Shown: piece by piece, positions 8,540 through 50,113 of the stretch
Layout of the letters: each line of letters starts with the position of its first letter
Position numbering within the stretch: position 1 is the stretch's first letter
Source: Fundidesulfovibrio putealis DSM 16056
GTDB taxonomy: Bacteria; Desulfobacterota; Desulfovibrionia; Desulfovibrionales; Desulfovibrionaceae
Assembly: GCF_000429325.1 (NCBI RefSeq)
Contig: NZ_KE386885.1
Location: 585,958 to 649,957 of the forward strand
Length of the DNA: 64,000 bases
Reading direction: 5' to 3'
The notes under the pieces: model-generated
What the model was told of the DNA's origin: nothing
The model's input: the letters and a program-made list of their open reading frames with translations, nothing else
The model's database searches: none
Position numbers and translations under genes: made by a program

Positions 8540-10395
8540 GCGGCCCTCCTGCCGGTATGGCGTCCCAGCACCCACAGGTTCCACAGCAGCAGGCGGTGGT
8601 CCGCTGCGCCGTCTCGATGTTCGCGCCAAACCCGCTCGACCACGGAGCGGTCGATGCACTGGGGAAGGCTCAACCCGTCGAGATCAAGCCTGCCTTCCTG
8701 GAACCACAGCCCCACGGGCGCGCCGAACCCCTTCTTCTTGCGGTGCAGGATGTCCGCAGGCAGGAGCGGCTCCAGGGCCTTTTTCAGGATGTACTTGCCC
8801 TGTCCGTCCCGGAACTTAAAGCGGTGCGGGATGCGCCGGACCAGGTCCACCAGCTCCAGGTCCAGGAAGGGGGCGCGCACCTCCAGAGAATTCAACATGC
8901 TGGCGCGGTCCACCTTCACCAGGATTGCGTCCTGGAGATACAGCTTGGCGTAGAATTCCAGGGTCTTGTCCACGAGGTCCGGGGCCACGCAGTCGTCCCA
9001 GGCCTCGATGGCCTCGGAGTAGACCTCCTCCGGGTCGCAGGGCTCGGCGAACAGCTCGGCCAGCAGTGCGGGCTCCACGGGGCCGAGCCACACCGGGTTC
9101 CACAGGCGCTTGTCCTGCGACAGTCCGGCCAGGAACCGGTTCACCTTGAAGGAGAAGTGCATGTTGGAGTGGCCCACGGGCAGGCGCGCCGCGAGAAGTC
9201 GCAGGGCCTGATGCACGGGCCTGGGGCACAGGGCGGCGTAGCCCTCGGCAGCGCGCAGGGCCTTGAAGGGGTCGTAGCCAGCGAAGAGTTCGTCCGCGCC
9301 GTCGCCGCCCAGGGCCACGGTGACGTGTTTTCGCGTCTCGCGGCAGAGTAGGTACGTGGGCAGAAGAGAGCTGTCGCCCATGGGCTCGTCCAGGCGGGCA
9401 GCGATGTCCGGCAGGATGCCGAGCGCCGTGGAGAGGCTCAGGACCTCCTGGCTGTGCGCCGTGCCGAAGAGCGCAGCCGCGCGGCTGCTGTAGGCGGATT
9501 CGTCGAAGCTCGCTTCGGTGAAGCCGATGGAGAAGGTGCGAAGCCCGGCGACGCGTCTGGCCGCCAGGGCGGTGATGGCCGAAGAATCGATGCCGCCGGA
9601 CAGGAACACGCCCAGGGGCACGTCGCTCATGAGGCGGCGCGCCACGGCCTTGTCCAGAAGCTCGCGGATCTGTTCGCCCCATTGGGCCTCGGGATCGGCG
9701 GGCAGGGTGTCGAACGGCTCGATGCGATAGGTCCAGTAGCGCGACAGGCGAGACGAGAAATCATCCAGGTTCACCAGCAGGTTGCATCCGCCGGGGAGCT
9801 TGCGCACTCCGGCGTACAGGCTGCCAGGGGCCGGGATGAAGCCGTAGGCGAAGTATTTCCTGAGTGCGCCGTGATCCAGCCCGGTCGGCACCTCGAGGTG
9901 TTCCAGCAGGGCGGAGAGCTCCGAGGCGAAGGCCAGGAATCCGGGGCGCAGGTGGTAATACAGGGGTTTCTTGCCGAAGCGGTCGCGCGAAAGAAGCAGC
10001 TCGCTGCGCTCGGCGTCGTAGAGGGCGAAGGCCCACATGCCGCTCAAGCGTTCGGTCAGGTCCTGGCCCCACTCCCGGTAGCCGTGCAGGAGCACTTCCG
10101 TGTCGCAGTGGCTGGTCTGGAAGCGGTGGCCTTTGGCTTCAAGCTCGCGGCGCAGCTCCTGGTGGTTATAGATTTCGCCGTTGAAGGTGACGCACAACCC
10201 TTCGTCCAGCGTGGCCATGGGCTGGGCTCCGCTCACGATGTCCACGATGGCCAGCCTGCGGTGCCCCAGGTGCAGCCCGTGGCGCGGATGGAAGCTGGTT
10301 CCCTGGCCGTCCGGCCCGCGATAGGCCATCCGGGCGTTCATGGCCGCGAGTACGGCCTCGTCGCCCGGGCCAGCGAAACCGCAGATGCCGCACAT
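8536..10395 (-). CDS. asnB: Asparagine synthetase-type glutamine amidotransferase (copy 2)
   Basis: The 619-residue protein has Cys2 (MCGICGF), NGEIYN at 72-77, the PP-loop SGGIDSS at 266-272 and GDGADELFAGY in the synthetase domain, so both half-reactions should be intact. It differs clearly from copy 1 in length and sequence (for example RRLMSDVPLGVFL against RIRLMSEVPLGAHL), so this is not a recent tandem duplication. It is translationally coupled to the downstream methyltransferase and lies 7 bases after a GT2 gene. The likely role is amidation of a sugar acid or amino-acid substituent on the glycan, or asparagine synthesis. Confidence 0.9.
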   Translation of the reverse strand: MCGICGFAGPGDEAVLAAMNARMAYRGPDGQGTSFHPRHGLHLGHRRLAIVDIVSGAQPMATLDEGLCVTFNGEIYNHQELRRELEAKGHRFQTSHCDTEVLLHGYREWGQDLTERLSGMWAFALYDAERSELLLSRDRFGKKPLYYHLRPGFLAFASELSALLEHLEVPTGLDHGALRKYFAYGFIPAPGSLYAGVRKLPGGCNLLVNLDDFSSRLSRYWTYRIEPFDTLPADPEAQWGEQIRELLDKAVARRLMSDVPLGVFLSGGIDSSAITALAARRVAGLRTFSIGFTEASFDESAYSSRAAALFGTAHSQEVLSLSTALGILPDIAARLDEPMGDSSLLPTYLLCRETRKHVTVALGGDGADELFAGYDPFKALRAAEGYAALCPRPVHQALRLLAARLPVGHSNMHFSFKVNRFLAGLSQDKRLWNPVWLGPVEPALLAELFAEPCDPEEVYSEAIEAWDDCVAPDLVDKTLEFYAKLYLQDAILVKVDRASMLNSLEVRAPFLDLELVDLVRRIPHRFKFRDGQGKYILKKALEPLLPADILHRKKKGFGAPVGLWFQEGRLDLDGLSLPQCIDRSVVERVWREHRDGAADHRLLLWNLWVLGRHTGRRAA

Positions 10396-10402
10396 GAGAG
10401 GG

Positions 10403-11365
10403 TCAGTCCCCGTTTTCGCAGTTGCGGGTGCGGTCCACGATGTATGTCGGCTTGTTCTGCGACTCGTGGTAGGTCCGCATCAGAATCTCCGCGATCAGCC
10501 CCATGAAGATGGACATGAAGCCCATCAGCGTGAACAGGGTCACGGCCATGGGCAGGGGCGTCTCGATGAAGCTCTTGTTGGCGAAGATCTTCAGGTACAG
10601 CATGAGGCCGAACAGCAGAAACGAGATGAGGAACGTGACCAGCCCGAACCCGCCGAACAGGTACATGGGCTTGTGCGCAAACTTGTCCAGGAATTTGACG
10701 ACGATAAGGTCCAGGATGACCTTTATGGTGCGGTCGAACCCGTACTTGGAGACCCCGTGCACGCGCGGATAGTGGGTGACGCCCACCTCGGTGACCTTGG
10801 CTCCCTGCCAGGCCGCGTAGATGGGCACGAAGCGGTGCATCTCGCCGTAGAGCTTCACGTTCTTGATGATGGCCTTGCGATAGGCTTTCAGCGAACAGCC
10901 GTAGTCGTGCAGATGCACCCCTGAGATGAAGGAGATCAGGCGGTTGGCCATGCGGCTGGGAAGGTTGCGCTTCAGGGGGTGGTCCTGGCGGTCTTTGCGC
11001 CAGCCGGAGACCACGTCGTAGCCCTCGGCCAGCTTGGCCAGGAGCTTGGGGATGTCGTGGGGGTCGTTCTGGAGGTCGCCGTCCATGGGGATGAGGATGT
11101 CCCCGGTGGCTGCGTCGATCCCCGCCATCATGGCCGGGGTCTGGCCGAAGTTGCGGCGCAGGTGGATGACCTTCAGGCGGTTGTCGGACTTGGCCAGCTC
11201 CTTCAGGCGCTGGGCCGTGTTGTCGGTGGAGCCGTCGTCCACGATGATCACCTCGTAGGGCTGGCCCATGGAGTCCAGGGCTTCGGTGATCTTCTGGTGC
11301 AGGGGGAGGACGTTGTCCTCCTCGTTGTACACGGGGATGATGATGGAGAGTGATTGTTCTTTCAT
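10403..11365 (-). CDS. GT2 glycosyltransferase, DPM1/ArnC type with two C-terminal membrane spans
   Basis: The 320-residue protein has an N-terminal GT-A domain with IIPVYNEEDN, VDDGSTDNT and the metal-binding MDGDLQNDP. Two hydrophobic spans follow at roughly 230-255 and 265-290. This is the layout of dolichol/undecaprenyl-phosphate sugar transferases such as ArnC and GtrB, which load a sugar onto a polyprenyl carrier. The membrane protein encoded immediately upstream (11401-13452) could use that lipid-linked sugar as donor. The pairing is inferred from order and from the known GtrB/ArnT logic. Confidence 0.88.
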   Translation of the reverse strand: MKEQSLSIIIPVYNEEDNVLPLHQKITEALDSMGQPYEVIIVDDGSTDNTAQRLKELAKSDNRLKVIHLRRNFGQTPAMMAGIDAATGDILIPMDGDLQNDPHDIPKLLAKLAEGYDVVSGWRKDRQDHPLKRNLPSRMANRLISFISGVHLHDYGCSLKAYRKAIIKNVKLYGEMHRFVPIYAAWQGAKVTEVGVTHYPRVHGVSKYGFDRTIKVILDLIVVKFLDKFAHKPMYLFGGFGLVTFLISFLLFGLMLYLKIFANKSFIETPLPMAVTLFTLMGFMSIFMGLIAEILMRTYHESQNKPTYIVDRTRNCENGD

Positions 11366-11400: not shown

Positions 11401-13452
11401 TCAACCCTCACCGGCCTGGGAGGAATTGCCGATGCGGGCGGGACGAAGGTCGATGAGGAAGGCGCCGGGACGCAGGGGGATGCGCGGGAAACGGGACGCG
11501 TCCAGGACGGCGAACCCGCCCGTCAGAAGATCACGGCCTTGGGTCAGGGCCTTGATTGCTGCGCCGAAAGGCTCGAAGAACGGTTTTGCGGCGAGAAACT
11601 CTTTCGTGAAATGCGCCTCGTCCACCACCAGGAAGTCCACGCCGAACTCGCGCGCGAACCGGACCACAGCGTCCGCGTCGCTGGCGTAATAGGCGGCGAA
11701 GAAGCCGTCCAGGCGCGGGGACAGCTGCGCCCAGAAGCCCCGGCTCCAGGGGTGGGCCAGTTCGAAGGTGGCCAGGGCGTTTCTCCGGGCGAAAGTCATC
11801 ACGTTGTCCATGAGCTCCGGGTGTCCGGCCAGCATGGCGTTCTTGGGCGTGGCTGCCTCCACGGCGGCGTAGAGGGGCGCGTCAGCCGAATAGTCGTACA
11901 GGGCCACGTTTTTCAGGCGCAGTGCGCCGAGCGCCGCCACGGCCAGGATCAGGCACACTGCGGCGGTTCTGCCGGGCTTGAGGCGAGTCACCGCCCCGGC
12001 CAGACAGGCCGAGAGGAGGATCGCGTAGAGCAGGTTGACCGGGTACTGCATGTAGCGGTCCGGCACGAAGAGCGTGAAGGCCATGAGCCGCGCCGCGATG
12101 TAGAAGGCCAGGAAGGACCCGCCCAGCACGGCCAGGGGCTTGAGGGAAGAGGCGAGGGCGCGCCAGTTCACGGCGCGCGCGCCGAAATACAGCAGCGGGG
12201 CCAGCACCACGAGGCTCAGGATTCCGGGGATGAGGCCGTACTCCTTGAACAGGCCGATGCGCTCGAAGGGGTAGTACACCACGTCCAGGAAGGGATTCGG
12301 AAGCGGGACGAGGTCCAGGCGTCCCTCCGGGCCGAACTCCGGCCTTCCGGTCGCCTCGGCCAGGGAGACCAGGGGGCCGAAGCCCTGGTCCTGGGGCTTG
12401 ATACCGTTCAGGTAGGCCATGCCTGTTGCCAGGAGCAGGACCAGCAGCGTGACACCCAGCTTGAGCTTTGCCGAACCTTCCAAGCCGACGCGCAAGCGCT
12501 GGATGGCCGAGAGGAAGATCGCCGGGGCGCAGGGCAGGTAGATGTACGGGATGCAGCCGCCCAAGGCCAGGGTGGAGACGCTCCCCGGCCTGCGCCTGAG
12601 AAGCCCGAGCACAGCCAGGGCCAGCAGGGGGCTTGCGAAGGCGCGGGCCAGCCCGCCAGAGATGTTCTCCAGGAAAAACGGCATGAGCCAGGCCATGGCC
12701 GCCATGGCCCAGGCCTGGGAGCGGCCGCCGAACACGCGCCCCAGCGCGAACATGGCCAGGCACTGGCACAGGAAGAGAATGCCGCTGAGGATCTTGGTGA
12801 ACTGCACCGGGTTGAAGAAATTGACCGTCTGTCCGGAAGACGGGTACGTCGGCGCACCCGGCGAAGCGCTCGATAGGGAACCCGGCGGGGAGCCGGGTGA
12901 AGAGCCGATCTGCGGCGCGGCCCCGGATGAGCCCGAAGCCCCGGAAGCACCTGAACTGCCAGATGCTCCAAGCTTCGTCCCGACCCAGGACCCGAACTCG
13001 TAGCACATGTTGACGCCCATGGTCACATAGGCCTCGGCGTAGTCGTTCAGCAGGGTCTTGGGGTACAGGTCCGGCTCGGCGTAGCGCTGCATCCAGTAGA
13101 CCTGTTGGCGCACGTCGTCGTTTATGGCGTAGGGGTTCACGAACCCCTGCCAGTGGGCGAAGAGAAATACCGCCAGGGACAAGAGCGCCACCGCGAGCCA
13201 GTCCGCGCGGGTGACGGCCCCCTTGCCGGACAGGGCCGGATCCCTTGGGAGGGCGGATGCCAGCCCCTGCCCGCCATCTGCGCCCGGTGTCCGGGCCTGA
13301 ATGGCCTGAGTCGGCGGAAGTTGCTGGCCGTGCGGCATCGTATTGAGGTCCGGCGTCACGTGCGAACGGGAGAGTGTGAATAGTTGGTCGGGCCGCCCTT
13401 GTCCTGGAGGGCAGGGACGGCCTGGGGCACGGATATCCGGGCGTCCGGGCAT
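11401..13452 (-). CDS. Polytopic membrane protein, possible lipid-linked-sugar transferase, with a Gly/Ser-rich insert
   Basis: This encodes up to 683 residues with about ten hydrophobic spans after residue 85 and a soluble C-terminal domain (about 530-683). A first-loop Asp pair (AINDDVRQQ, about 110-114) resembles the acidic catalytic motif of GT-C enzymes. Residues 162-207 (bases 12832-12969) are an unusual Gly/Ser/Ala/Pro run between the first loop and the next span. The start is doubtful: the first 38 residues are Pro/Arg-rich and look non-coding, and M39 (ATG at 13338) is an alternative; neither has a clear ribosome-binding site. It lies between the bCerS-like gene and the GT2 gene. The specific function is unknown. 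Confidence 0.75.
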   Translation of the reverse strand: MPGRPDIRAPGRPCPPGQGRPDQLFTLSRSHVTPDLNTMPHGQQLPPTQAIQARTPGADGGQGLASALPRDPALSGKGAVTRADWLAVALLSLAVFLFAHWQGFVNPYAINDDVRQQVYWMQRYAEPDLYPKTLLNDYAEAYVTMGVNMCYEFGSWVGTKLGASGSSGASGASGSSGAAPQIGSSPGSPPGSLSSASPGAPTYPSSGQTVNFFNPVQFTKILSGILFLCQCLAMFALGRVFGGRSQAWAMAAMAWLMPFFLENISGGLARAFASPLLALAVLGLLRRRPGSVSTLALGGCIPYIYLPCAPAIFLSAIQRLRVGLEGSAKLKLGVTLLVLLLATGMAYLNGIKPQDQGFGPLVSLAEATGRPEFGPEGRLDLVPLPNPFLDVVYYPFERIGLFKEYGLIPGILSLVVLAPLLYFGARAVNWRALASSLKPLAVLGGSFLAFYIAARLMAFTLFVPDRYMQYPVNLLYAILLSACLAGAVTRLKPGRTAAVCLILAVAALGALRLKNVALYDYSADAPLYAAVEAATPKNAMLAGHPELMDNVMTFARRNALATFELAHPWSRGFWAQLSPRLDGFFAAYYASDADAVVRFAREFGVDFLVVDEAHFTKEFLAAKPFFEPFGAAIKALTQGRDLLTGGFAVLDASRFPRIPLRPGAFLIDLRPARIGNSSQAGEG

Positions 13453-13485: not shown

Positions 13486-14613
13486 TCAGATCTCGCGGTC
13501 ATAGAGACGGAATGTCCGCCACTTCCTGCCGCCGAACATCTGGAGGGTCTTGTTCCACTTGATGAGCGACTCGGGAATCAGCGAGCAGTCGCACCAGATG
13601 CCGTTCTTCTTCCACTTGCTGAGCGTTATCATGATGTTCATGATGAGCGCGTAGTGGAGCTTGCGCCACTGGTGGGACTTCTTCACGCCGATGATGATGG
13701 CGCGCGAAGCCTTGAGCGGCGCGATGCGGCAGTCGTACAGCAGGCGCAGCATGCCCAGCCAGTCGAGCTTGCCACGGGTCTTGTGCAGGGTGTGGTTGAT
13801 GTCGGGCGCGACCACGCTGAAGGCCAGGATCTCGCCGTTCTCCTCCACGAAGCTGACAAGCTCGGGGCGCAGGATGGGCTTTAATTGCAGGAAGATGTCG
13901 TTGAACTGACGTTCTGTCAGGGGGACGTGGCCCCAGTTCTTGTCCCAGAGGGTGTTGAACATGTCCAGCACTTCCGGGGCGCGCCGTATGAACTCGCTGG
14001 TCTTGCCCTGGGTGATGGTCAGTCCGGCGGCGTTCATGATGTCGTCGCGGCGTTTGACCAGCTCTTCGTAGGGCATGGGCATCTCGTCGATGATGTAGCC
14101 GAACCAGTCGAAGGCCTTCCTGAATCCCCAGTTTTCCACGAGCTTCTCGTAGTACGGGGGATTGTAGCTGTGAAACATGACCGGCCGCTCGCCGTAGCCC
14201 TGGATGAGAAGCCCCACCTCGTCGTAGATGCCAAACGACAGCGGCCCGTGCAGCTTGGTCTTGCCCCTGGCGCGCACCCAGTCCGCAGCGGTCGTAAACA
14301 GCGTGTCGGCAATGTCCTGGTCATCGATGCACTCGAAGAACCCGAAGAAGCCGGTGTCCTTGTCGTGGTGCTTCTCGTAGGCGAAGTTCAGGTGGGCGCT
14401 GATGCGCCCCACGATCCTGTCACCGTCCTTGGCCAGGAACAGCTGGACCTCGCCCACTTCATAGAAGGGTCCGGTCTTGGGGTCCAGGAAGGAGCGCAGG
14501 TGGGGAATGACGGGGGGGACCCAATAGGGGTCCCCCTCATAGATGGAAAACGGAAACTGGATGAAGTCTTCCATGTCCTTGGCGCTGGACACGGGGACGA
14601 TGCGTGCGGGCAT
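13486..14613 (-). CDS. GNAT-fold acyltransferase of the YghO / bacterial ceramide synthase-like family
   Basis: The 375-residue protein opens with the family signature FIQFPFSIYEGDPYWVPP, followed by the DRIVGRISAHLN strand of a GNAT fold and a second GNAT-like half. E. coli YghO and the GNAT-type bacterial ceramide synthase (bCerS) of Caulobacter, which N-acylates a sphingoid base, belong to this family from memory. Its stop is one base from the HlyD gene start, and an alpha-oxoamine synthase lies in the same transcription unit. N-acylation of a long-chain amine is therefore the leading hypothesis. The family call is good; the substrate is inferred. Confidence 0.75.
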   Translation of the reverse strand: MPARIVPVSSAKDMEDFIQFPFSIYEGDPYWVPPVIPHLRSFLDPKTGPFYEVGEVQLFLAKDGDRIVGRISAHLNFAYEKHHDKDTGFFGFFECIDDQDIADTLFTTAADWVRARGKTKLHGPLSFGIYDEVGLLIQGYGERPVMFHSYNPPYYEKLVENWGFRKAFDWFGYIIDEMPMPYEELVKRRDDIMNAAGLTITQGKTSEFIRRAPEVLDMFNTLWDKNWGHVPLTERQFNDIFLQLKPILRPELVSFVEENGEILAFSVVAPDINHTLHKTRGKLDWLGMLRLLYDCRIAPLKASRAIIIGVKKSHQWRKLHYALIMNIMITLSKWKKNGIWCDCSLIPESLIKWNKTLQMFGGRKWRTFRLYDREI

Positions 14614-14614
14614 A

Positions 14615-15562
14615 TTATTTCTTCGGTATGATGGTGACCTGCGCCTTGAGACCTTCCTTCAGGGAATAGTCGGCGTTGGGCAGGGTGAGCTCGATTTCAT
14701 AGTAGGAAGGCTGCTGCAGGGCCGTGGGCAGCGGAGCCCAGGGGATGCGGCTGACCGTGGCCACGAACTCCTTGCCGGGGATGGAGTCGAAGCTGACCTT
14801 GGCCTGGTCGCCCAGCTTCAGGCGCAGGGCCTCGATCTCGTGCACCTGGGCGCGGATGAGGATGGGGTCCAGGAGGCCCACCTGGAAGAGCTCCACGTCG
14901 CGCGCCAGCTTCACGCCCTTGCGAAGCTCCGGGTTGATCCACAGGATGTACCCATCGGTGGGAGACTTCACGATGCCTTCGTTGGGCAGCACACCGAAGT
15001 TGGCCTTGGGGCCGAAGCGTTCGCGGGTGAGCTCCAGGCGCTGCTGGGCCTGCTCCCTCTCCGAGGCGAGCTTTTCCTGAAGGGCCACGCGCTGCTTCTC
15101 CAGCACGTCGATCTCCTGGGCGTTCTGCACCAGCGCCTGGGAGGTGGCCATGTTCTGCTTCTCCATGACCTCCAGCTCTTTGCGCTTCATGCGGAGCTTG
15201 TCGATGTCCTTGCCGGCGGTGGCCAGCTGGTGCTCCATGTCCTTGACGCTGGCCAGGGACAGGGCGCGCTTTTCAGACATGCGGGTTTCCAGCGGGATTT
15301 CGAAGGTGGCCAGGATTTCGTCCTTTTTCACCTTCTGGCCGATGGCCATGGGCATGGACATGATCTGCGAGGTGTAGGGCAGCTGCACGGTCAGCTTGAG
15401 CGGGCTGTAGAGCTTGCCGGAGAAGATGATCTCCTGGGCCAGGGGCGAGGGCTCGGCTGCCTTGGCGGCCGGAGCCGGGGCAGGAGCGGCCTGCTGGGCC
15501 AGGGCCGCGCCAGTGGCGGCCAGGCTAAGGACAAGGGCGATGAAGAGGGTGCGCATGGTCAT
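14615..15562 (-). CDS. HlyD/MFP-type periplasmic adaptor of a tripartite exporter
   Basis: The 315-residue protein has an N-terminal signal sequence ending near an ALAQQ site and an Ala/Pro-rich linker. Lipoyl-like half-motifs (GQKVKKDEIL, then SPTDGYILW) flank a long alpha-helical hairpin rich in Lys, Glu and Gln (about 95-180). Beta-barrel and membrane-proximal segments follow. Such adaptors bridge an inner-membrane ABC permease to a TolC channel. GGGAGA stands about 8 bases before the ATG at 15562, and the TolC-like gene ends 3 bases upstream. With the three genes upstream it forms a complete ABC-adaptor-channel set. Confidence 0.88.
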   Translation of the reverse strand: MTMRTLFIALVLSLAATGAALAQQAAPAPAPAAKAAEPSPLAQEIIFSGKLYSPLKLTVQLPYTSQIMSMPMAIGQKVKKDEILATFEIPLETRMSEKRALSLASVKDMEHQLATAGKDIDKLRMKRKELEVMEKQNMATSQALVQNAQEIDVLEKQRVALQEKLASEREQAQQRLELTRERFGPKANFGVLPNEGIVKSPTDGYILWINPELRKGVKLARDVELFQVGLLDPILIRAQVHEIEALRLKLGDQAKVSFDSIPGKEFVATVSRIPWAPLPTALQQPSYYEIELTLPNADYSLKEGLKAQVTIIPKK

Positions 15563-15565
15563 GCG

Positions 15566-17233
15566 TTATTTCTCCCAGGCGGCGACGTCGATGTACTGAC
15601 CCTGGAGGTCGCCGGAAAGGTGCTTGAGGGACAAGAGCGCGATGTCGCGCTTGACCTGTTGGAGAAGCTGCTGCTGCTTTGCGTCGTAGAAGGCGTTGCG
15701 GTCGGTGACCAGCTTGTCGAAGTCCAGCTGACCGGTTTTGTAGCGGTATTCGGCCTGCTCATCCTGAAGCTTGGCCAGATCGGCCTTGGAGCTGGCCAGC
15801 AGCAGATCGGAGCTGGTGGTCTGGTATTCGGACATGGCCTTCTGCACCAGCACGATGACCTCGAACTCCTTGGCCTTGGCGGCGGCCTGGAGCTGATCGA
15901 GCTTCTTGTACTGGCGCGATATCTCGCGGCCCTTGGTCCAGTAGTCCAGCGGCATGCTGATGTTGATGCCGGGATAGAACGGGAAGCCGTTGTTCTGGGC
16001 GTTGGAGGAGGTGTTGTTGAAGGCGTCCACGGTCTGGAAGGTGAAGCCGAAGGAGGGCAGAAGCTTCACGTAGGACAGGCCGATGTTCTTCTTCTGGAGG
16101 CTCTTTTCGTATTCCTGCATGCGCAGGTCGAAGGAGTAGGCGCGCACCTTCTCGTCGGTCACGTCGGCGGGGCTGAACTTGCCCAGGATCTGCTGCTTGG
16201 CGGCGGCCACGTCGAGCTCAAGCTTGTTGGTGAAGGGCACGCCCAGCAGGAACTTGATGTCGTCCATGACCATGGCGCGCATGGCGTTGATCTTGTCGTC
16301 CTCGGCCTTGGCCATCTGGATGCGGGTCTCGGCGATGCGGATGTCCAGCTGGGTAGCCTGGCCCAGGCCGAGCCTGGCCTTGAAGAAGTCCAGGTTCTGC
16401 TTGGCGAGGTCCTGGCGCTTCTTGACCATTTCCTTCTGCTCCGCGATGGCGGAAAGCTGGAGGAAGTCGCTGGCCAAGCGCTTGAGGCCCTCGGCAATGA
16501 CCTTGAGGTGGCCAAGGATGGCGATGTTGGTCATCTCCTTGCGAGCCTGGACCTCGAAGCCGGAGAGCAGCGGGTTCCATTGGCCGGAGGAGAAACTGAT
16601 GGTGTAGGGCTTGTCCGTGGTTCCGTCGGTCTTGGTGGGCATGCGGAACCAGTATGTGGTGTTGATGGCGACTGTGGGCACGAAGGACGACCATGCGTCC
16701 TGCACGTCCAGGCGCTTGGTTTCGATCTCCAGCGCGGACTTCACCAGCATGGGCGACTGCACCAGGGCCACGCGCACGGCTTCGTTGAAGTCGGCGGGCT
16801 GCTTGATGGTGGTGGACATCTCCCGCATGGCGCCCGGAGGAGGCGTAGCGCCGTCGGTCTGGGCCGGAGCCTGGGCCTTCGCCTGGGTATCGCCCTTGGC
16901 GGCGTTCTTGTCGGCGGCGGGCTTCTTGGCAGAGACAGTGTCGCTGGTGTCGTTGGTTACGGGCGTGCCGGGCTGGGCCGCCTGGGTTACTGGAGCGGAG
17001 GGAAGCACCTCGGCCTGGTACTGGCGTATCTCACCGGGCTTGGCGGCGGGTTTGGTGTATACCTCGCCGGATGCCTGGGCGGTCTGCACCTGTTTTGTCT
17101 TGGTCGATTTGGCGTCGGCCTGGGTCTTCTGCTGGGCCATTGCCGCTCCCGCGAAGGCCAGCAGGAAACAGAGAAGGACGGCCAGGGCCGCTGCTGCGCG
17201 GCGGTGCTTATGCGGACCGAAAGTGCGATGCAT
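15566..17233 (-). CDS. TolC-family outer-membrane channel with a long N-terminal linker
   Basis: The 555-residue protein has a signal peptide (hydrophobic core LAVLLCFLLAFAGAAMA). A roughly 120-residue Ala/Gln/Thr/Lys-rich linker precedes two TolC repeats made of long amphipathic helices, for example around LGLGQATQLDIRIAETRIQ. TolC proteins are usually about 450-500 residues, and the linker explains the extra length. The channel would carry substrate across the outer membrane from the HlyD/MacB-like machinery encoded on either side. The gene starts 16 bases after the ABC ATPase stop. Confidence 0.88.
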   Translation of the reverse strand: MHRTFGPHKHRRAAAALAVLLCFLLAFAGAAMAQQKTQADAKSTKTKQVQTAQASGEVYTKPAAKPGEIRQYQAEVLPSAPVTQAAQPGTPVTNDTSDTVSAKKPAADKNAAKGDTQAKAQAPAQTDGATPPPGAMREMSTTIKQPADFNEAVRVALVQSPMLVKSALEIETKRLDVQDAWSSFVPTVAINTTYWFRMPTKTDGTTDKPYTISFSSGQWNPLLSGFEVQARKEMTNIAILGHLKVIAEGLKRLASDFLQLSAIAEQKEMVKKRQDLAKQNLDFFKARLGLGQATQLDIRIAETRIQMAKAEDDKINAMRAMVMDDIKFLLGVPFTNKLELDVAAAKQQILGKFSPADVTDEKVRAYSFDLRMQEYEKSLQKKNIGLSYVKLLPSFGFTFQTVDAFNNTSSNAQNNGFPFYPGINISMPLDYWTKGREISRQYKKLDQLQAAAKAKEFEVIVLVQKAMSEYQTTSSDLLLASSKADLAKLQDEQAEYRYKTGQLDFDKLVTDRNAFYDAKQQQLLQQVKRDIALLSLKHLSGDLQGQYIDVAAWEK

Positions 17234-17249
17234 CGGGATCTCCCCTGGG

Positions 17250-17948
17250 CTAGTACGTCTTGAGCATGCCTTCGGACAGAAGGCTCCTGCGGGAACAGCG
17301 GGCTGCCGTGGCTGCGTCGTGCGTGACGATGACCATGGCCACCCTGGCCTCTTCGGTGATTTTCACGAAATAATCCATGACCCTCTCGGAGTTGGCCTGG
17401 TCGAGCTGGCCGGTGGGTTCGTCGGCCAGGATGAACTCGGGCTCGTTGACCAGGGCCCTGGCGATGGACACGCGTTGGCGTTCGCCGCCGGACAGGCGGT
17501 TGGAGGGCTGGCGCACCCGGTGTTCCAGGTTGACGCGCTGCAAGGCCTCCATGATCTTGTCCGGCCTCTCCCGGCGCTTCACGCCGGTGTAGATGAGCGG
17601 CAACTCCAGGTTTTCATACACGGTGGAGTTTTCGAGCAGGTCACAGCTCTGGAACACGAAGCCCATCTTCTCGCGGCGAAAGATGGCCTGCGCGTCTCTC
17701 GAGAGCTTCAGCACGTCGATCCCGGCCACGTTGTACACGCCGCCGGTGGGCGGCTGGAAGATGCCCAGGATGAAGAGCAGCGTGGACTTGCCGGAGCCGG
17801 AGGGGCCCATGATGGCCATCATCTCGCCCCGGCGGACTTCCAGGTTTATGTCCTTTAGCACCGAGATCTTCTCCGTGCCGGAGATGTAGTCCTTGGTGAG
17901 GTGCTGGATGTCGATGACCAGCTCCTTGTCTTTCTTGACGTTATTCAT
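17250..17948 (-). CDS. MacB/LolD-type ABC transporter ATP-binding protein
   Basis: The 232-residue protein has Walker A GPSGSGKST at about 48-56, the signature LSGGERQRVSIARAL, Walker B FILADEPTGQLD and a switch His (VIVTHD). I chose the ATG at 17948 because the N-terminus (MNNVKKDKE) then matches LolD/MacB-type ATPases and overlaps the permease stop by 8 bases. The longer open frame to 18029 lies inside the permease gene. It powers the separate MacB-like permease encoded upstream, so ATPase and permease are split here, whereas in MacB they are fused. Confidence 0.92.
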   Translation of the reverse strand: MNNVKKDKELVIDIQHLTKDYISGTEKISVLKDINLEVRRGEMMAIMGPSGSGKSTLLFILGIFQPPTGGVYNVAGIDVLKLSRDAQAIFRREKMGFVFQSCDLLENSTVYENLELPLIYTGVKRRERPDKIMEALQRVNLEHRVRQPSNRLSGGERQRVSIARALVNEPEFILADEPTGQLDQANSERVMDYFVKITEEARVAMVIVTHDAATAARCSRRSLLSEGMLKTY

Positions 17949-19191
17949 AGCGCATGGCGTCCACGACCTGCATCCGGCTGGCCCGGATGGAGGGATAGAG
18001 TCCCGCGCCGATTCCCAGTACGGCGGCAAAGGCCAGACCAGCGGCGAGGCACAGCATGAAAAGTCCTTCCGGCGGGCTGGAGCCGAGCATGCGGCTCATG
18101 TATTCGATGCCCACGCGTCCCATCAGCACGCCAAGGAAGGCAGACGTGAAGGTGACTGTGAGCGCCTCGAACAGGAACTGCCAGAGAATGTCGGAGTCTT
18201 CCGCGCCCATGGCTTTTTTCAGGCCGATCTCGCGGGTGCGCGCCGAAACCGCCGCCATCATGATGTTCCAGATGCCGAAGCCGCCAAGCACCAGGGTGGC
18301 GCCGATGGAGGCGTAGATGAACAGGCTCACCCACCAGAACATGCGCTGCACCTGCTTCAAAGGCTCCCAGCCCACCTGGACTCGCAGGCCCTTGTCGGTC
18401 TGGTTGGCCTTTATGACCTCGGGAAGGGCGGCGGCCACGGGGGCCACGTCGTCCCAGGTGTTGCAGCGGATGTAGAGGCTCGATACCTCGGAGATGTTGG
18501 GGATGCGGGACTGGGCGGTGGTGATGGGCAGAAACGCCATGAGGGTCTTGTCCGCCGCGCGCACGCCGCCGATGATGCCAACGACCTGGTAGAGGTTGTT
18601 GTCCATGTTCAGGATCTGCCCGATGGCCGCCTCGGGGGAGCCGAAGATGGTCTTGGCGAGATCCTGGCCCAGCACCGCGACTTTGCGCCCCTCGGCGATG
18701 TCGGACGCGTTGAAGAGCCTGCCGTGCTGGGGCGAGAACGAGAACAGCGACCAGTAGTTTTCATCCACGCCGACCAGGTTGAAGCCGAAGACTTTCTCCT
18801 GGTAGGTGGTGGTGGCTCCGGAGCGAAGGCGGCTCTTGGTGACGTCGCGCACCCCGGGGATGGTCTCGATGGCCGCGACGGTCTTGTTGCGGAACCACTC
18901 CTGGCGGTCGTACATCTGGGGGTCGAAGTGCGCGGCGATGATGGTCGCGCCGCCCAGCAGGTCCAGGTCGTTGTTGAAGTTCGCCTTGAGGTCGCGCCCC
19001 ATGGTCACGATGGTGATGAATCCGGCGGTCCCCAGTGCGATGGAGGCCATGACGCCGATATAGCGGCGTCGCTTGCGCAGCACTTCCCGGAAGCTGATGC
19101 GCAATAGGTCTCCGAATCGCAGGAGTCGTGTACCCCGGTCCGGCGGGAGGAATCCCGCCGCCCGGAGGGTCTGAAGAGTCTTGTTGGCCAT
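17941..19191 (-). CDS. MacB-type ABC transporter permease
   Basis: The 416-residue protein begins with a short cytoplasmic segment and TM1 near residues 40-60 (VMASIALGTAGFITIV). A large periplasmic MacB-PCD domain spans about 65-290. Three C-terminal TM helices carry the FtsX-type signature (RTREIGLKKAMGA before TM3). MacB-type proteins use mechanotransmission to push periplasmic substrate into a TolC conduit rather than transporting across the inner membrane. Together with the ATPase, adaptor and TolC genes this makes a complete exporter. The substrate is not known; the lipid-like product of the flanking oxoamine synthase and N-acyltransferase is a candidate. Confidence 0.9.
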   Translation of the reverse strand: MANKTLQTLRAAGFLPPDRGTRLLRFGDLLRISFREVLRKRRRYIGVMASIALGTAGFITIVTMGRDLKANFNNDLDLLGGATIIAAHFDPQMYDRQEWFRNKTVAAIETIPGVRDVTKSRLRSGATTTYQEKVFGFNLVGVDENYWSLFSFSPQHGRLFNASDIAEGRKVAVLGQDLAKTIFGSPEAAIGQILNMDNNLYQVVGIIGGVRAADKTLMAFLPITTAQSRIPNISEVSSLYIRCNTWDDVAPVAAALPEVIKANQTDKGLRVQVGWEPLKQVQRMFWWVSLFIYASIGATLVLGGFGIWNIMMAAVSARTREIGLKKAMGAEDSDILWQFLFEALTVTFTSAFLGVLMGRVGIEYMSRMLGSSPPEGLFMLCLAAGLAFAAVLGIGAGLYPSIRASRMQVVDAMRYE

Positions 19192-19253
19192 GCTTCTCGT
19201 AGGGAGGTGTGAAATACCCGGTCCCTGTTTAGTCTATCTGAACCGCTGTTCGG

Positions 19254-20540
19254 TTACAAGAGAGACTGACTTGAGCGCGCGCCAGCGATGGAAGACGCGC
19301 CGACCGCCTCTTCCCCGCCGGAATCCTCGTCCTGGTCCTGCACGCGGATGCGGTACTTGCGGGCCATTTCGTCCATGACGTCCAGCACGTACTCCAGCTG
19401 GCGGTCTTCATGGGTGGACATGCACGCGGTGCGGATGAGCGCCTGTCCGCGCGGCACGGCCGGATAGATGGCCGGGAGGGCGAAGATGCCGCGCTCGAAG
19501 AGTTCCTGGGCGAACATGAAGGCTTTTTCGTCCGTCCCGATGGTGATGGGGATGATGGGCGAGAGCGATTCCGTGATGCGAAGTCCCATGTCCCGGTACG
19601 CGTTGCGCATGCGGGTGGTGATGGCGTGCAGGCGCTCCACGCGCTCGGGTTCGGCCTCCAGAATGTCGATGCAGGCCAGGGCGGCCATGGTGCTGGCGGC
19701 GGGAAGGGCCGCCGAGAAAATCTGGGTGCGCGACTGGTGCTGGATGTATTCGAGCACGTCGATGTGGTCGGAGGCGATGAAGCCGCCGATGGAGGCGAAG
19801 GCCTTGGAGAAGGTGCCCATGATGAAGTCGCACTGCTCCACCACGCCGAAGTGGTTGGCCGTGCCGCGCCCGCTCTGGCCCAGCACGCCCAGGCCGTGGG
19901 CGTCGTCCAGGTAGATGAGAAGCTCGGGGAACTGCTTCTTCAGCGCGCCCAACTCGTCCATCACAGCCACGTCGCCGGACATGGAGAAGATGCCCTCGGT
20001 GATGAGCAGCACCTGGCCGTCGAAGTCCGGCTTGGCCATTTCCGAGGCGATCTTGCGGGAGGCGGAACCGGCGTCGTTGTGCACGAAGGTGCCCATCTTC
20101 TTGGTGCCGCCAAGGCCCGCGAAGATGGAGGCGTGGTTCTCGCGGTCGCACAGGACGTAGTCGCTGGGGGTCAGCAGGCAGCCCAGCACGCCCATGTTGG
20201 TGGAAAATCCGGTGACGTGCAGCACGGCGCGCTTCTTGCCCACGAAGGCGGCGAGGCGCTCCTCCAGGTTCTGGTGGATGGCCATGTTGCCGGAGAGGAA
20301 ACGGGAACCGCCGGGGCCGGTGCCCATGGAGTATATGGCCTGGGCGGCGGCTTCCTTGACGCGGGCGTCATGGGCCAGACCCAGGTAGTCGTTGGAGCCG
20401 ATCATCACCAGACGTTTCCCGGCAACCTCGACCTCGGTCCCCCAGGAGCGACTGATGGGGCGGAAGTAGGGGTAAATGCCCGCATCTTTCAGATTGCGGG
20501 TGATCCCGGAAACTTTCTGGCAGCGTTCATGCAATTTCAT
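19254..20540 (-). CDS. Alpha-oxoamine synthase, serine palmitoyltransferase-like (PLP-dependent)
   Basis: The 428-residue fold-type I PLP enzyme belongs to the oxoamine synthase group (Spt, BioF, Kbl, HemA, CqsA). It shows SNDYLGL (49-55), GTGPGGSRFLSGN, H136 (ring stacking), the D212-x2-H215 pair, and the internal-aldimine lysine K246 in GTFSKAF. I chose the ATG at 20540 because AAGGA lies about 9 bases upstream; the open frame runs on to 20600 without support. The family condenses an amino acid with an acyl-CoA/ACP. GIYPYFRPI near the N-terminus resembles serine palmitoyltransferase, and the bCerS-like gene in the same operon supports this. Kbl- or CqsA-like activity is not excluded. Confidence 0.82.
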   Translation of the reverse strand: MKLHERCQKVSGITRNLKDAGIYPYFRPISRSWGTEVEVAGKRLVMIGSNDYLGLAHDARVKEAAAQAIYSMGTGPGGSRFLSGNMAIHQNLEERLAAFVGKKRAVLHVTGFSTNMGVLGCLLTPSDYVLCDRENHASIFAGLGGTKKMGTFVHNDAGSASRKIASEMAKPDFDGQVLLITEGIFSMSGDVAVMDELGALKKQFPELLIYLDDAHGLGVLGQSGRGTANHFGVVEQCDFIMGTFSKAFASIGGFIASDHIDVLEYIQHQSRTQIFSAALPAASTMAALACIDILEAEPERVERLHAITTRMRNAYRDMGLRITESLSPIIPITIGTDEKAFMFAQELFERGIFALPAIYPAVPRGQALIRTACMSTHEDRQLEYVLDVMDEMARKYRIRVQDQDEDSGGEEAVGASSIAGARSSQSLL

Positions 20541-20652: not shown

Positions 20653-21132
20653 TCAAGGGGTCTTGAGGCTAAAGTACTCGCGAACGTGGCGGGCGTTTTC
20701 CTTCATTATTTTGGACAGCGCCGTGGCGGCGCGGCGATACTGTCCGGGGAAGGTGGGAGTGTAGTAGACCTCGTCATCGTCATCGGCCAGCACAAGGCTG
20801 TAGTTGCGTGTCCAGAGGTGGCGCTTGGTGGACCACTCCATGTAGATCCAGACCAGACGCTCGCGCCCTTCGCGGTTCAGGCAGCGGGCCACGCCCCAGG
20901 AGTAGGCTTCGTCTCCGGCCTCCACCACGCGGTGCTTGAGGAAGTCCGGACGCACATAGGACAGATCCGAGGAGTCGCAGAACCCCCTGGCGGCGATCTC
21001 CCAGGCCTGGGCGTACTGGTCCTTGGAGAGGTGCGTGAGCCCGGCGGGGGGGTAGATGTAGCCGTTGAAGAAGGCGAAGCTGCCGATGGCCAGCCCCAGG
21101 GCGGCCAGCACGGCGATCAGGAGGCCCCTCAT
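20653..21132 (-). CDS. Hypothetical protein with one N-terminal membrane anchor
   Basis: The 159-residue protein has a hydrophobic N-terminus (LLIAVLAALGLAIGSFAFF, about 4-22). A mixed extracytoplasmic domain follows, rich in aromatics and Arg, with an acidic DDDDE patch. The ATG at 21132 has GGGAGG upstream and overlaps the upstream stop (ATGA, 21129-21132). The two small proteins and the ArnT-like enzyme are therefore translationally coupled and probably made in fixed ratio. I do not recognise the family. Periplasmic partner or regulator of the membrane glycosyltransferase is an inference. Confidence 0.72.
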   Translation of the reverse strand: MRGLLIAVLAALGLAIGSFAFFNGYIYPPAGLTHLSKDQYAQAWEIAARGFCDSSDLSYVRPDFLKHRVVEAGDEAYSWGVARCLNREGRERLVWIYMEWSTKRHLWTRNYSLVLADDDDEVYYTPTFPGQYRRAATALSKIMKENARHVREYFSLKTP

Positions 21133-21575
21133 TTCGCGCCTCCCGTTCCCGGCGCGAGCGGATCGCACACGCCCCATCCCAGGCTCCAGCTTTCGGCCTG
21201 CATGCGTCTGGCGCGGGCCAGCTTCTCTTCAGCCAGCACCAGGGAGTCGGCGTTGCGCTCGTCCTTGGCCAGGGTCTTCTTGATGGCGCGCTCCACGCGG
21301 TCACGGGTCACCAGGGCGTCGTCCGGCGGCGTCTCGCCCAGGGCGTCCATCTCCCGCAGGCGCAGCTCCAGGGCCTTGCCGGTCTGGTAGTTGAAGTCGA
21401 AGTGGCGCTCCTTCATGATGAGGGAGTTCTCCCCGTCGTTCACCTGCCCCCGGTAGAAGCGCTCGGGCTCCAGCACAGGATAGATCTCGGGCAGCTTCAT
21501 GAAGCCCTTGTAGAAGGTCAGGGCCAGGCAGAAGAAGAGTCCGGCCTTCACGGCGCGCGTCAGGTTACTGCGCAC
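21129..21575 (-). CDS. Hypothetical membrane-anchored protein
   Basis: The 148-residue protein has one hydrophobic segment near the N-terminus (AGLFFCLALTFYKGFM, about 11-27). The rest is charged and helical, including a long Lys/Glu/Arg stretch (about 90-130). The gene overlaps the upstream ArnT-like gene by about 10 bases and the downstream 159-residue gene by 4. No family was recognised. Like its neighbour it would sit in the inner membrane with its bulk most likely in the periplasm; orientation cannot be fixed from sequence alone. Confidence 0.72.
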   Translation of the reverse strand: MRSNLTRAVKAGLFFCLALTFYKGFMKLPEIYPVLEPERFYRGQVNDGENSLIMKERHFDFNYQTGKALELRLREMDALGETPPDDALVTRDRVERAIKKTLAKDERNADSLVLAEEKLARARRMQAESWSLGWGVCDPLAPGTGGAK

Positions 21576-23205
21576 GGGCGGACTCCTTGCGCTTGTAGAT
21601 CACCAGGGCGCTCTGGGGCGGGCCTGCCGGGACGAAATAGTGGAAGTAGGGGTCGGCCCGGTTGCCGAAGGTCTCGTCCGGATTGGGCAGCTCGATGCGC
21701 TCATAGTCGCGGGCCAGATCGAGCTTTGTGGTGATGAACTCGCGCGGGGCGAACAGGAAGCCGTCGCGGTTGACGCGCACGTCGCGGCGCATGCTCACCC
21801 AGTCGGGCTTCTCGGTGTCCGGGATGGGGCCTTGCAGGCCGCCGATTACCCGGAACGGGGTATGGAACTGGAGCACCATGTCGCCGTATTCGGCCAGGAT
21901 GGTCTGGCCGGGTTTGGCGTTGGCCTTGAAAAAGTCGATGAGGGGCTGGTTCACGTCCGGGTAGCCGCAGAAGAGCTCCGTCAGGTGCAGCTTCAGGGGG
22001 ATGTTCACCGAGGTGAGCATGCGCAGGTCGTTCTGCCAGGGGCGGTTGACGATCTTCAGGCGCTCCATGGGGATGAGGTTCAGCCAGTTGGTCAGGCCCA
22101 CCAGCACCAGGAACAGCACCGCCGAGGGTTTTGAGAAGCGCCACAGGGCGAGGCCCGCCCAGGCCAGCAGGATGGCGCAGGCCGGGTAGAAGTGCACGAT
22201 GTAGCGGTGGAAGCGCTGGGGGAACAGGGCCAGGATGACGAAACTGCCGATCATCAGCAGCACCATGAACAGGCAGAAGCGCTCTTTCGGATCCGACGGC
22301 CCGCCGCGCCCCGCGAAGTATCCCTTCCAGCGCCAGGCCAGCGCGGCCAGGAGCGGCAGGGGAACCATGAACATCACCCAGTCCGAGAAGTAGAGCATGA
22401 CGTTCTCGGGAATGAGCATGACGTTGAACAGCGTGGACTGCCTGCCCAGCCGGTACAGGAAGATGCCCGGCACGATCAGCACGCAGGAGTACGCCACCAC
22501 CAGGGCCATGCGCGTCCAGGCGAACTGCCTGCGGTAGAGCGTGAGCGCCGCCAGCAGCATGGGCGGCGCAAGCGAGAGCAGCAGCAGGTAGTTGGCGTGG
22601 AACAGGAGCCCAAGGCCCAGGCCGATGGCCAGCATGGGCTTGGCGCGGTGTTTCCAGTCGCCCAGGAACCCCCAGAAGATCATCAGCATGATGAGTCCTC
22701 CGGCGGAATAGTAGCGGCCCTGGCGCGCGAACAGCAAAAACGGCACGGAGCAGGTGAGCAGCGCCGCAGAGAGCCTGGCCCAGGCCAGATCGCCGAAGCG
22801 CCGCAGGATGAGCAGGTACGTGCCCGCGATGCAGGCAAGGCCCGTGAGCGCAAAGAAGAACCTGGCCCAGAAGGTGCTCGCGGGGTCGATCAGCTGTCCG
22901 GCGGCGGACATGTAGATCTGCATCCAGGGGGACCAGCGCCAGATCATGTCCGTGTCGAACTCGCGGCGCTCCTCCTGGGAGACGATGTTCACCCCGTCGG
23001 TGACAAGGGGGATGCCGGTGGTGAGGACGTTGCGGGCCAGGTTGGCGGTCTCGGCCTCGTCCTGCCACAGGGGGCGGTCACCGAGTCCTTTGAATATAAG
23101 GAAGGCGCCCAGGGCCAGGATGGCCAGGAACACGGGGTCGCGCCAGGGACGCAATGGCGTGGGGGTATGTGTGTGCATGGTAAAGCGGCGGCTTTGTACC
23201 CGCAT
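21565..23205 (-). CDS. ArnT/GT39-like polytopic membrane glycosyltransferase
   Basis: The protein has up to 546 residues and about eleven membrane spans. The first periplasmic loop carries PLWQDEAETA, the acidic DE motif of ArnT/PMT-type GT-C enzymes, and the C-terminal soluble domain contains ILAEYGDMVL. These enzymes move a sugar from a polyprenyl phosphate to a surface acceptor. A second in-frame ATG at 23178 (MHTHTP) is equally plausible, and neither start has a clear ribosome-binding site. It is the first gene of the 18.5-kb minus-strand cluster, divergent from a GT2 gene. Confidence 0.87.
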   Translation of the reverse strand: MRVQSRRFTMHTHTPTPLRPWRDPVFLAILALGAFLIFKGLGDRPLWQDEAETANLARNVLTTGIPLVTDGVNIVSQEERREFDTDMIWRWSPWMQIYMSAAGQLIDPASTFWARFFFALTGLACIAGTYLLILRRFGDLAWARLSAALLTCSVPFLLFARQGRYYSAGGLIMLMIFWGFLGDWKHRAKPMLAIGLGLGLLFHANYLLLLSLAPPMLLAALTLYRRQFAWTRMALVVAYSCVLIVPGIFLYRLGRQSTLFNVMLIPENVMLYFSDWVMFMVPLPLLAALAWRWKGYFAGRGGPSDPKERFCLFMVLLMIGSFVILALFPQRFHRYIVHFYPACAILLAWAGLALWRFSKPSAVLFLVLVGLTNWLNLIPMERLKIVNRPWQNDLRMLTSVNIPLKLHLTELFCGYPDVNQPLIDFFKANAKPGQTILAEYGDMVLQFHTPFRVIGGLQGPIPDTEKPDWVSMRRDVRVNRDGFLFAPREFITTKLDLARDYERIELPNPDETFGNRADPYFHYFVPAGPPQSALVIYKRKESARAQ

Positions 23206-48907: not shown

Positions 48908-49158
48908 GTCTCCATCAGGGTATTGTGAAAATGCACCTGTGCTCCGCAACAGACCTTACTGAGCTGTCGGGCGTGCGGTGCTTCCATCTGTTGACATCCT
49001 GGATTCATATAGCAGTGGTCCATCTTAGCGTGTCTTTGGTCTAAACCGCCGGAGCGCCAGCGCTTTTGTTTAGCGAAATGTCAGCATTTCCATGGCCAGC
49101 CGTGTCCTCCCTTGTGTTTATTATAACATCTTAACTCGATGTATAGGCATTGCGAAAA

Positions 49159-50028: not shown

Positions 50029-50113
50029 TAACGATAATGGGAAGTTCATGGTTGATGAGCAACGCTACTCTAGGGCTGGTTAGAATGTTATCTTCTTTGA
50101 CGATGGAGTGGCT

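Follow-up and report, generated by a model that had tools for sequence, protein, structure and literature searches.

A candidate pathway for a sphingolipid-type lipid and its putative MacB-type tripartite exporter in Desulfovibrionaceae and relatives

The transporters of bacterial sphingolipids, and the way these lipids cross the envelope, are called unidentified in the accessible parts of two 2024 papers (PMC11087976, PMC11324152). A locus in the 64-kb stretch of DNA analysed here (the window) raises the question of whether lipid synthesis and export could be encoded side by side: six minus-strand genes at 13486-20540, with coordinates re-checked, encode in order an Spt-like synthase, a MacB permease, an ATPase, a TolC-like channel, an HlyD/MacA-type adaptor and a GNAT protein (Table 1), at intergenic distances of 62, -8, 16, 3 and 1 bases, the ATPase start codon (ATG) overlapping the MacB stop by 8 nt. 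A sequence-only reading had described this gene set as tightly spaced (1-62 bases or overlaps), with a complete tripartite exporter between two enzyme genes; both descriptions held on re-examination, with MacB_PCD and FtsX permease, ABC ATPase, adaptor and OEP channel all found. A scan for promoters and terminators returned 1 promoter-like and 10 terminator-like sites, compared to 1.8 and 11.3 in shuffles, a background level at which the scan lends no support to the operon ends. The small protein listed in Table 1 is kept in the Fundidesulfovibrio and Solidesulfovibrio loci. We consider it probable that the locus encodes a sphingolipid-type pathway that lacks CerR and is served by a tripartite exporter of its own, of MacB type, which would work like DevBCA-HgdD.

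Table 1. Features of the locus and the evidence used to assign them.
Feature	Coordinates	Strand	Basis
PMT/ArnT-like membrane glycosyltransferase	21565..23205	-	no Pfam match itself; homolog L101:7319-8878 matches PMT_2, 44 bits; synteny
Small conserved protein; by eye, an apparent membrane or signal segment at the N-terminus	20653..21177	-	Pfam: none
Spt-like alpha-oxoamine synthase	19254..20540	-	Pfam Aminotran_1_2, PDB ranking, tree, catalytic columns
MacB-like permease, MacB_PCD + FtsX	17941..19191	-	Pfam; PDB 5xu1 (ABC permease), MacB 5gko/5nik/5lil
Exporter ABC ATPase	17250..17948	-	Pfam ABC_tran
TolC-like outer-membrane channel	15566..17233	-	Pfam OEP 4.5e-27
HlyD/MacA-type periplasmic adaptor	14615..15562	-	Pfam HlyD_D23; NCBIfam MacA 41 bits, cut-off missed
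bCerS/YghO-family tandem GNAT, variant subfamily	13486..14613	-	blastp to YghO, motif table, tree, AF2 + Foldseek
Polytopic GT-C-fold glycosyltransferase	11401..13452	-	AF2 + Foldseek; matches no Pfam family; actual start probably more internal
GT2, ArnC-like polyprenyl-phosphate sugar transferase	10403..11365	-	NCBIfam PRK10714 (ArnC) 223 bits, cut-off 529 missed
Glutamine-dependent amidotransferase, asparagine-synthase type	8536..10395	-	Pfam; XrtA-type TIGR03108 below cut-off; pathway membership putative
GT4 glycosyltransferase	6588..8360	-	Pfam, NCBIfam, synteny in relatives; pathway membership putative
Second amidotransferase, asparagine-synthase type	4686..6584	-	Pfam, NCBIfam, synteny in relatives; pathway membership putative

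The synthase comprises 428 residues from a conserved MKL start (448 from an in-frame upstream ATG), and its best NCBIfam score, 405 bits against the SPT (CFB) model NF047600, falls below the cut-off of 640, as does the 308 bits against NF047599 (cut-off 500); the bioF and Kbl models give 319 and 303 bits. Its best PDB match is the S. multivorum SPT (8guh/3a2b, 321 bits), the next protein scoring 242 bits. In a quick tree which, like that of the GNAT protein below, carries SH-aLRT support only and long-branch warnings, the window Spt falls in a deep clade of its own (support 100) to which the remaining Spt-like rows together are sister (SH-aLRT 88); these include CerR/bCerS-linked Spts, a homolog from Parabacteroides and the Spt of E. 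coli BL21, with Kbl, BioF and HemA apart. The phylogeny thus sets the enzyme on the Spt side, as the sequence-only reading had supposed. The columns of the PLP Lys246, His136 and Arg370 (428-residue numbering) are invariant in 50/50 exporter-clade and 18/18 canonical rows, and we take these residues to be catalytic by the roles known from SPT structures. Relative to canonical Spts, the exporter clade carries the fixed changes S372A and N355L near the carboxylate-binding Arg, making a different substrate possible. A special case of our preferred explanation, which we regard as possible but lean against, is that the product is a sphingoid analogue built from another amino acid, either 1-deoxy (alanine, glycine) or sulfono (cysteate, capnine-like), and exported likewise. 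The fixed changes beside Arg370 and the presence in the same family of a solved cysteate acyltransferase (206 bits) are consistent with it, as is a Black Sea lipidomics study which, in its available part, tentatively links Desulfobacterota and/or Bacteroidota to 1-deoxy and sulfono-1-deoxy ceramides; the much closer match to the S. multivorum SPT argues against it. Separately, an Spt homolog in genus g40 has long open frames, which were rejected, the sole one tested (L180) being a BioW-BioF fusion.

Conservation of gene order bears directly on whether the exporter belongs with the synthase. All four exporter genes occur at 43 of 44 distinct sister loci (Spt at least 50% identical, at least 7 kb downstream, exporter-clade loci being picked by identity to the window Spt), while a permease lies nearby at none of 65 control loci, among which are oxoamine synthases other than Spt and some contigs of short length; this contrast puts the linkage beyond chance, rules out a chance operon and bears out the earlier suggestion of a dedicated exporter insofar as the cassette travels with the window Spt subfamily. 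The gene set is conserved across several orders, with the linkage seen also in Fundidesulfovibrio agrisoli SG106, Solidesulfovibrio alcoholivorans DSM 5433 and S. aerotolerans DSM 16695, and in one genome (G020) PKS, PPTase, canonical bCerS, CerR, Spt and exporter genes lie within about 20 kb. Near the Spt of the sister loci, GNAT is found within 8 kb in 27/44 and a GT-C gene in 29/44. The association has exceptions: genome G028 holds a complete exporter (MacB 43%) with neither exporter-type Spt nor GNAT, G014 has MacB followed by HlyD with ATPase and TolC not seen within the 12 kb examined, and at L128 the exporter is not beside Spt and GNAT. In three further genomes (G040, G026, G030) MacB relatives of 36-37% identity occur without exporter-type Spt and with GT4 matches nearby. 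Together with G028 and with the XrtA-like amidotransferases and GT4 gene downstream in the window, these relatives would fit an exporter whose cargo is something else (an exopolysaccharide-linked lipid, a lipoprotein or a drug), spt and the GNAT gene being mere operon-mates; the 43/44 versus 0/65 linkage, and the two MAGs of Syntrophobacteraceae (L123, L125) in which Spt separates the permease gene from that of the ATPase, make this unlikely. As to transporter type, the ATPase scores 219 bits against LolD, 214 against MacB and 160 against DevA (TIGR02982, cut-off 296), missing every cut-off, which rules out DevA membership.

The second enzyme of our preferred explanation, the GNAT protein, matches nothing in Pfam or NCBIfam and nothing significantly in a PDB sequence search, but aligns over its full length with E. 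coli YghO (blastp, 28% identity, E 2e-56), and its AlphaFold2 model (pLDDT 89) retrieves tandem GNATs in Foldseek at TM of about 0.55-0.6. Exporter-type proteins carry [QR]xxx[LI]H at the acyl-CoA loop in 28 of the 29 rows where the loop is visible (L055 has LN; L050, cut off there, was left out of the count), in place of the [QR]xxG of 27/27 other rows, two Rhodobacterial references that also lack the Gly being set aside. They form their own clade (99) adjoining canonical bCerS, with the diverged canonical rows L065 and L069 joining at its base. The window protein belongs to a subfamily that is sister to canonical bCerS and altered at the acyl-CoA loop; of its earlier designation as bCerS-like, the YghO-family homology and fold stand, and membership of the canonical clade, which it lies beside, does not. 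Homologs of about 40% or more identity are present in 12/59 family genomes, all 12 with exporter-Spt (Fisher 1e-11, the Fisher values and the 1-in-2600 figure of the analysis overstating independence and being too strong because the rows are related by descent). GNAT is absent near Spt in six phylum-draw genomes and present elsewhere in 6/6, four of exporter type and two canonical.

As the sequence-only reading had noted, CerR is missing nearby: the 64-kb window holds no CerR match (best E 0.8) and no AcpR- or AasR-like gene (best E 0.8), and a whole-genome CerR search gave no clear match; its best-scoring proteins are an epimerase resembling TviC and, encoded on contig C6, a distantly related SDR (27% to E. 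coli CerR, E 1.7e-20) for which a tree gave no placement. Across 26 exporter-Spt genomes, 23 pair the variant GNAT with no recognised CerR and 3 pair canonical bCerS with CerR, so that the variant bCerS type and a recognised CerR exclude one another. CerR-like matches in family f7 (32-36%) were discarded, since all five that were tested score as HpnA over the curated threshold and two more fall in the HpnA clade; those of G247, G333, G373 and G312, and weaker SDR matches in Desulfovibrionaceae genomes (e.g. G031, G005, G332), lie outside this typing. The identity of the genes, their conserved linkage, the clades in which the proteins fall, their folds and the bCerS-type/CerR exclusivity are all directly computed.

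The AlphaFold2 model of the GT-C-fold protein (pLDDT 78) matches OST, DPY19 and AftA in Foldseek (E 6e-6 to 1e-4, TM about 0.4) and ArnT more weakly (E 1.5e-3). Glycosylation of the product had been proposed from these neighbours and would suit the glycosyltransferases of periplasm-facing type, which are part of the syntenic block in close relatives; the amidotransferase/GT4 tail is weakly linked to the lipid, because it resembles XrtA-type exopolysaccharide genes by score, with curated cut-offs missed. We find it improbable that the locus makes instead a secreted aminoketone or N-acyl amino-ketone (a signal or antibiotic-like amphiphile in the style of CAI-1/LAI-1) exported by MacB-TolC. Alpha-oxoamine synthases also make CAI-1-type signals, MacB pumps are reported, in the part of the source available, to export lipopeptides and polypeptides, and CerR is not recognised here, but the CAI-1 synthase match is far weaker than that to SPT (93 vs 321 bits), a bCerS-family partner with GT-C and ArnC-like genes fits a membrane lipid, and the set is kept across several orders. 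A primary-metabolism Kbl or BioF in this neighbourhood by chance is highly improbable, for although the fold family is shared and the bioF and Kbl models score as given above, the tree and PDB ranking rule out such an origin, and a separate paralog on contig C29 of the same genome groups with E. coli Kbl.

For the CerR-less sphingolipid-type pathway that we favour, the catalytic steps, substrate, flipping, glycosylation and export are what we infer from these data. In the cytoplasm, the Spt-like enzyme would join serine or a relative to a fatty acyl thioester, yielding a 3-keto long-chain base that the variant bCerS would then N-acylate. As CerR is not recognised, the ceramide-like lipid may remain 3-oxo, or another enzyme may reduce it. 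Once at the periplasmic leaflet, it would be glycosylated by GT-C enzymes supplied by the ArnC-like GT2, and the split MacB-type ABC transporter would extract it and hand it on, via the adaptor and the TolC-like channel, to the outer membrane or the exterior. Tentatively, we propose a dedicated sphingolipid exporter in Desulfovibrionaceae and relatives, a MacB-type ABC-adaptor-TolC conduit that may have evolved together with a deep subfamily of Spt and a variant bCerS working without CerR, the whole set making and exporting a glycosylated ceramide-like lipid that is 3-oxo or non-canonical in some other way. The lipid-pathway interpretation first put forward for the locus survives in part, through the Spt-side synthase, GNAT homology, exporter linkage and syntenic glycosyltransferases. 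Of the two outcomes named beforehand as refuting it, a synthase clustering with Kbl/BioF is not seen, and for a GNAT outside the bCerS clade the picture is mixed, the protein lying outside the canonical clade but beside it. Counted against the explanation favoured here are the missed SPT cut-offs, the fixed Spt substitutions, the incomplete GNAT (27/44) and GT-C (29/44) linkage, the lone exporter of G028, the G014 and L128 loci, the 36-37% MacB relatives and the lack of AcpR/AasR.

Among the matches listed in a search of the open-access literature, no report links Spt to a MacB/TolC exporter. Here a complete exporter spanning two membranes is genetically bound to a lipid-type synthase, in named strains among others, which makes bacterial sphingolipid transport testable by gene deletion; if the proposal is true, a CerR-less ceramide-type route would be defined, and it could bear on the sphingolipid diversity tentatively assigned to Desulfobacterota in the Black Sea work, as far as that source was available. 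Like the Caulobacter/Rhodobacterial ceramide pathway (Spt, bCerS/YghO, CerR, AcpR, AasR), the window pairs an Spt-type synthase with a bCerS-family GNAT; unlike it, the window has no match to the last three enzymes, a variant bCerS loop and an added MacB-TolC cassette. That cassette stands in place of the LptF and LptG paralogs beside spt in E. coli BL21, and of LptF and another ABC protein in the Pseudomonas BYT-5 plasmid cluster. The pairing of PKS with exporter-clade Spt in G020 recalls PKS-Spt clusters (SgaAB, Pseudomonas MYb115), but SgaAB of MYb115 is, in the accessible part of its description, a two-gene cluster, and a search of the window operon proteins found no PKS. ArnC/ArnT periplasmic lipid glycosylation is echoed in the ArnC-like GT2 and GT-C-fold proteins, although the GT2 misses the ArnC cut-off and OST/DPY19 are better fold matches than ArnT. 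With MacAB-TolC the window shares a permease matching MacB structures and an adaptor weakly matching MacA, but its ATPase and permease are separate genes and all equivalog cut-offs are missed. DevBCA-HgdD is reported in the available part of the literature to export heterocyst glycolipids in Anabaena, and stimulation of the DevBCA ATPase by lipid is likewise reported. It resembles the window system in that a MacB-type permease and its ATPase are split and work with an MFP adaptor and a channel of the TolC family, and in a lipid cargo (putative in the window), and differs in that the window ATPase scores higher against LolD and MacB than DevA and that the window operon includes both channel and synthase.

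The Spt-exporter locus is real, conserved and out of the ordinary; its parts are themselves known, and what is new is their lineage-wide arrangement. Its lipid product, amino acid substrate, exporter cargo, chemistry and transport are predicted from sequence. The six genes and spacings proposed in the sequence-only reading, from a serine-palmitoyltransferase-like oxoamine synthase (Spt) through a MacB-type exporter to a GNAT acyltransferase, were all recovered, and the remark that no CerR-like gene lies nearby also held, as the window yielded no CerR-, AcpR- or AasR-like sequence (best E 0.8). In its scores, the operon tail (amidotransferases and GT4) resembles XrtA-type polysaccharide genes. 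Elsewhere in the window, a tRNA-Ser (44723-44812) shortly precedes an AT-rich stretch (GC 0.45-0.52 at 48001-52000, against ~0.65 across much of the window), a pattern (44723-52000) as for a genomic island.

Genes of the Spt-exporter locus and its flanks, in window coordinates
Gene	Position	Strand	Remark
PMT/ArnT-like gene	21565-23205	minus	homolog matches PMT_2
Small conserved protein	20653-21177	minus	
Spt	19254-20540	minus	
MacB permease	17941-19191	minus	
ATPase	17250-17948	minus	
TolC	15566-17233	minus	
HlyD/MacA-type adaptor	14615-15562	minus	
GNAT	13486-14613	minus	YghO homology, tandem GNAT model
GT-C membrane protein	11401-13452	minus	predicted GT-C fold
ArnC-like GT2	10403-11365	minus	best match ArnC, 223 bits, under cut-off
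Amidotransferase	8536-10395	minus	
GT4	6588-8360	minus	
Amidotransferase	4686-6584	minus	

To survey the linkage, fetched loci were searched with the window proteins by tblastn and counted after deduplication. This gave 52 distinct loci with an Spt at 50% or above, 44 of which retain 7 kb or more of downstream sequence. The complete set of four exporter genes is present in 43 of these 44, GNAT lies within 8 kb of Spt in 27, and the GT-C gene is found in 29. CerR occurs in 1/44, as opposed to 26/65 control loci carrying a weaker Spt or oxoamine synthase, and none of the 65 controls has MacB near the synthase. Carriers include Desulfovibrionaceae, Desulfobacca-type and Syntrophobacterales MAGs, and Verrucomicrobia/Kiritimatiellae MAGs; gene order varies, with Spt located between the permease and ATPase genes at L123 and L125 and the permease gene downstream of HlyD at L133. 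The sole miss is L128, a Lentisphaerae MAG. There, an exporter-clade Spt adjoins a variant bCerS without the cassette, and just a weak MacB/ATPase pair lies ~6 kb off on the opposite strand.

The window comes from a Fundidesulfovibrio-like genome, its Spt being 100% identical in one Desulfovibrionaceae MAG and 85% in F. agrisoli. Among solved structures, Sphingobacterium multivorum SPT is closest to this Spt (321 bits, against 242 for the next protein), other solved relatives being cysteate acyltransferase (206 bits) and CAI-1 synthase (93 bits); the NCBIfam SPT model ranked top, yet its curated cut-offs were not reached. In a 123-row quick tree, exporter-linked Spts form a single clade (50 rows, SH-aLRT 100) whose sister (SH-aLRT 88) comprises CerR/bCerS-linked Spts, the E. 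coli BL21 Spt and a Parabacteroides homolog. Kbl, BioF and HemA fall outside these clades together with the two own-genome paralogs, which speaks against such an affiliation and supports the placement on the Spt side. Active-site His, Lys and Arg are kept in all 50 exporter-clade and all 18 canonical rows, while by the criterion applied 24 positions show a consistent difference, among them S372A (beside Arg370) and N355L. Together with the clade placement, these features therefore define an Spt-like subfamily of its own, whose substrate may differ from the canonical one.

The GNAT protein matched no Pfam family, aligns end to end with YghO (28% identity), and has a predicted model (pLDDT 89) matching tandem GNATs. 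Its description as YghO/bCerS-like is thereby upheld as to YghO homology, but not as to membership of canonical bCerS: a 58-row tree gathers the exporter-type GNATs, whether linked or not, in a single clade (99) next to the canonical group, with two diverged canonical rows attached at the base of that clade. The acyl-CoA loop reads [QR]xxG in 27/27 canonical rows and [QR]xxx[LI]H in 28 of the 29 exporter-type rows where it is visible (L055 ends LN). E. coli YghO and its Pseudomonas counterpart, left out of the 27 and counted separately, also lack Gly at that place, so the changed loop by itself does not prove a new acyl donor.

Across 59 family genomes, a GNAT at ~40% or more occurs in 12, all with exporter-Spt (Fisher 1e-11, with G014 counted as without both). 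In G014, Spt fragments and a MacB-HlyD pair lie on separate contigs, and the 12 kb of sequence retrieved shows neither ATPase nor TolC. The only other intact exporter-Spt locus, in G020, accompanies a canonical GNAT. Among 26 exporter-Spt genomes with both CerR and GNAT results at hand, strong full-length CerR (E <= 9e-64) is found in three (G020, G331 and G391), all with canonical GNATs; the remaining 23 carry exporter-type GNATs (in 22 the loop is visible, 21 times as [LI]H and once as LN; L050, the 23rd, is interrupted by a contig end) and no recognised CerR (best hits E 2e-35 or weaker). Such a match has a chance of 1 in 2600 if the three CerR genomes are a random draw, kinship ignored. 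CerR-like hits in family f7 proved to be HpnA in 5/5 tested.

G020 (L036/L124) ties the exporter to a complete ceramide gene set: PKS, phosphopantetheinyl transferase, canonical bCerS and CerR come first, and ~2.5 kb further on, beyond an opposite-strand radical SAM gene, lies Spt-MacB-ATPase-TolC-HlyD-GT-C. Against a lipid-export reading stand G028, with a complete exporter and no window-type Spt or GNAT, and G040, G026 and G030, with MacB at 36-37% and GT4 hits close by. The unreached SPT cut-offs and the XrtA-like operon tail weigh on the same side.

Related genes also occur in other settings. G040, a relative that lacks the window-type Spt, has a different cluster (L183, C1:386001-402000) in which TolC and HlyD accompany an oxoamine synthase (28%) and an acyltransferase/ACP PKS-type protein; an amidotransferase and GT4 hits are close by, and the bCerS-CerR pair (L037) and a MacB-ATPase (L174) of this genome lie elsewhere. 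Canonical-type bCerS adjoins CerR in four Desulfovibrionaceae genomes (L037-L040), where no exporter-clade Spt was found; in L037, L038 and L040 an ATP-binding protein gene follows, which we take to be ABC-F-like. A BioW-BioF fusion (L180:9183-11150) occurs in a Desulfovibrionaceae genome of genus g40, and a Bacteroides plasmid predicted to be conjugative (L092) has a TetR regulator next to an oxoamine synthase that matches the window Spt at 35%.

The model of the GT-C membrane protein (pLDDT 78) adopts a GT-C fold, with OST, DPY19 and AftA as top matches (TM ~0.4) and ArnT weaker. The ArnC-plus-GT-C arrangement would suit sugar addition at the periplasmic face by enzymes of these types, after which the MacB-type pump would extract the glycosylated lipid. 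A precedent is DevBCA-HgdD, described as a split pump of MacB-like type that works with a TolC homolog to export heterocyst glycolipids and whose activity in vitro peaked with these lipids (PMC6161253, PMC8277102). Accounts of Caulobacter place Spt and bCerS in the cytoplasm and CerR in the periplasm, and state that the sphingolipid flippase or transporter is not known (PMC11087976, PMC11324152). In contrast to the MacB-TolC cassette of the window, LptF and LptG paralogs adjoin spt in E. coli BL21 (L047:9921-12067), and a Pseudomonas plasmid cluster carries LptF and an ABC protein (L093:1-774); these are candidates for the transport components of sphingolipid clusters of the Rhodobacterial type, and other lineages may therefore have solved the same transport problem with LPS-type parts.
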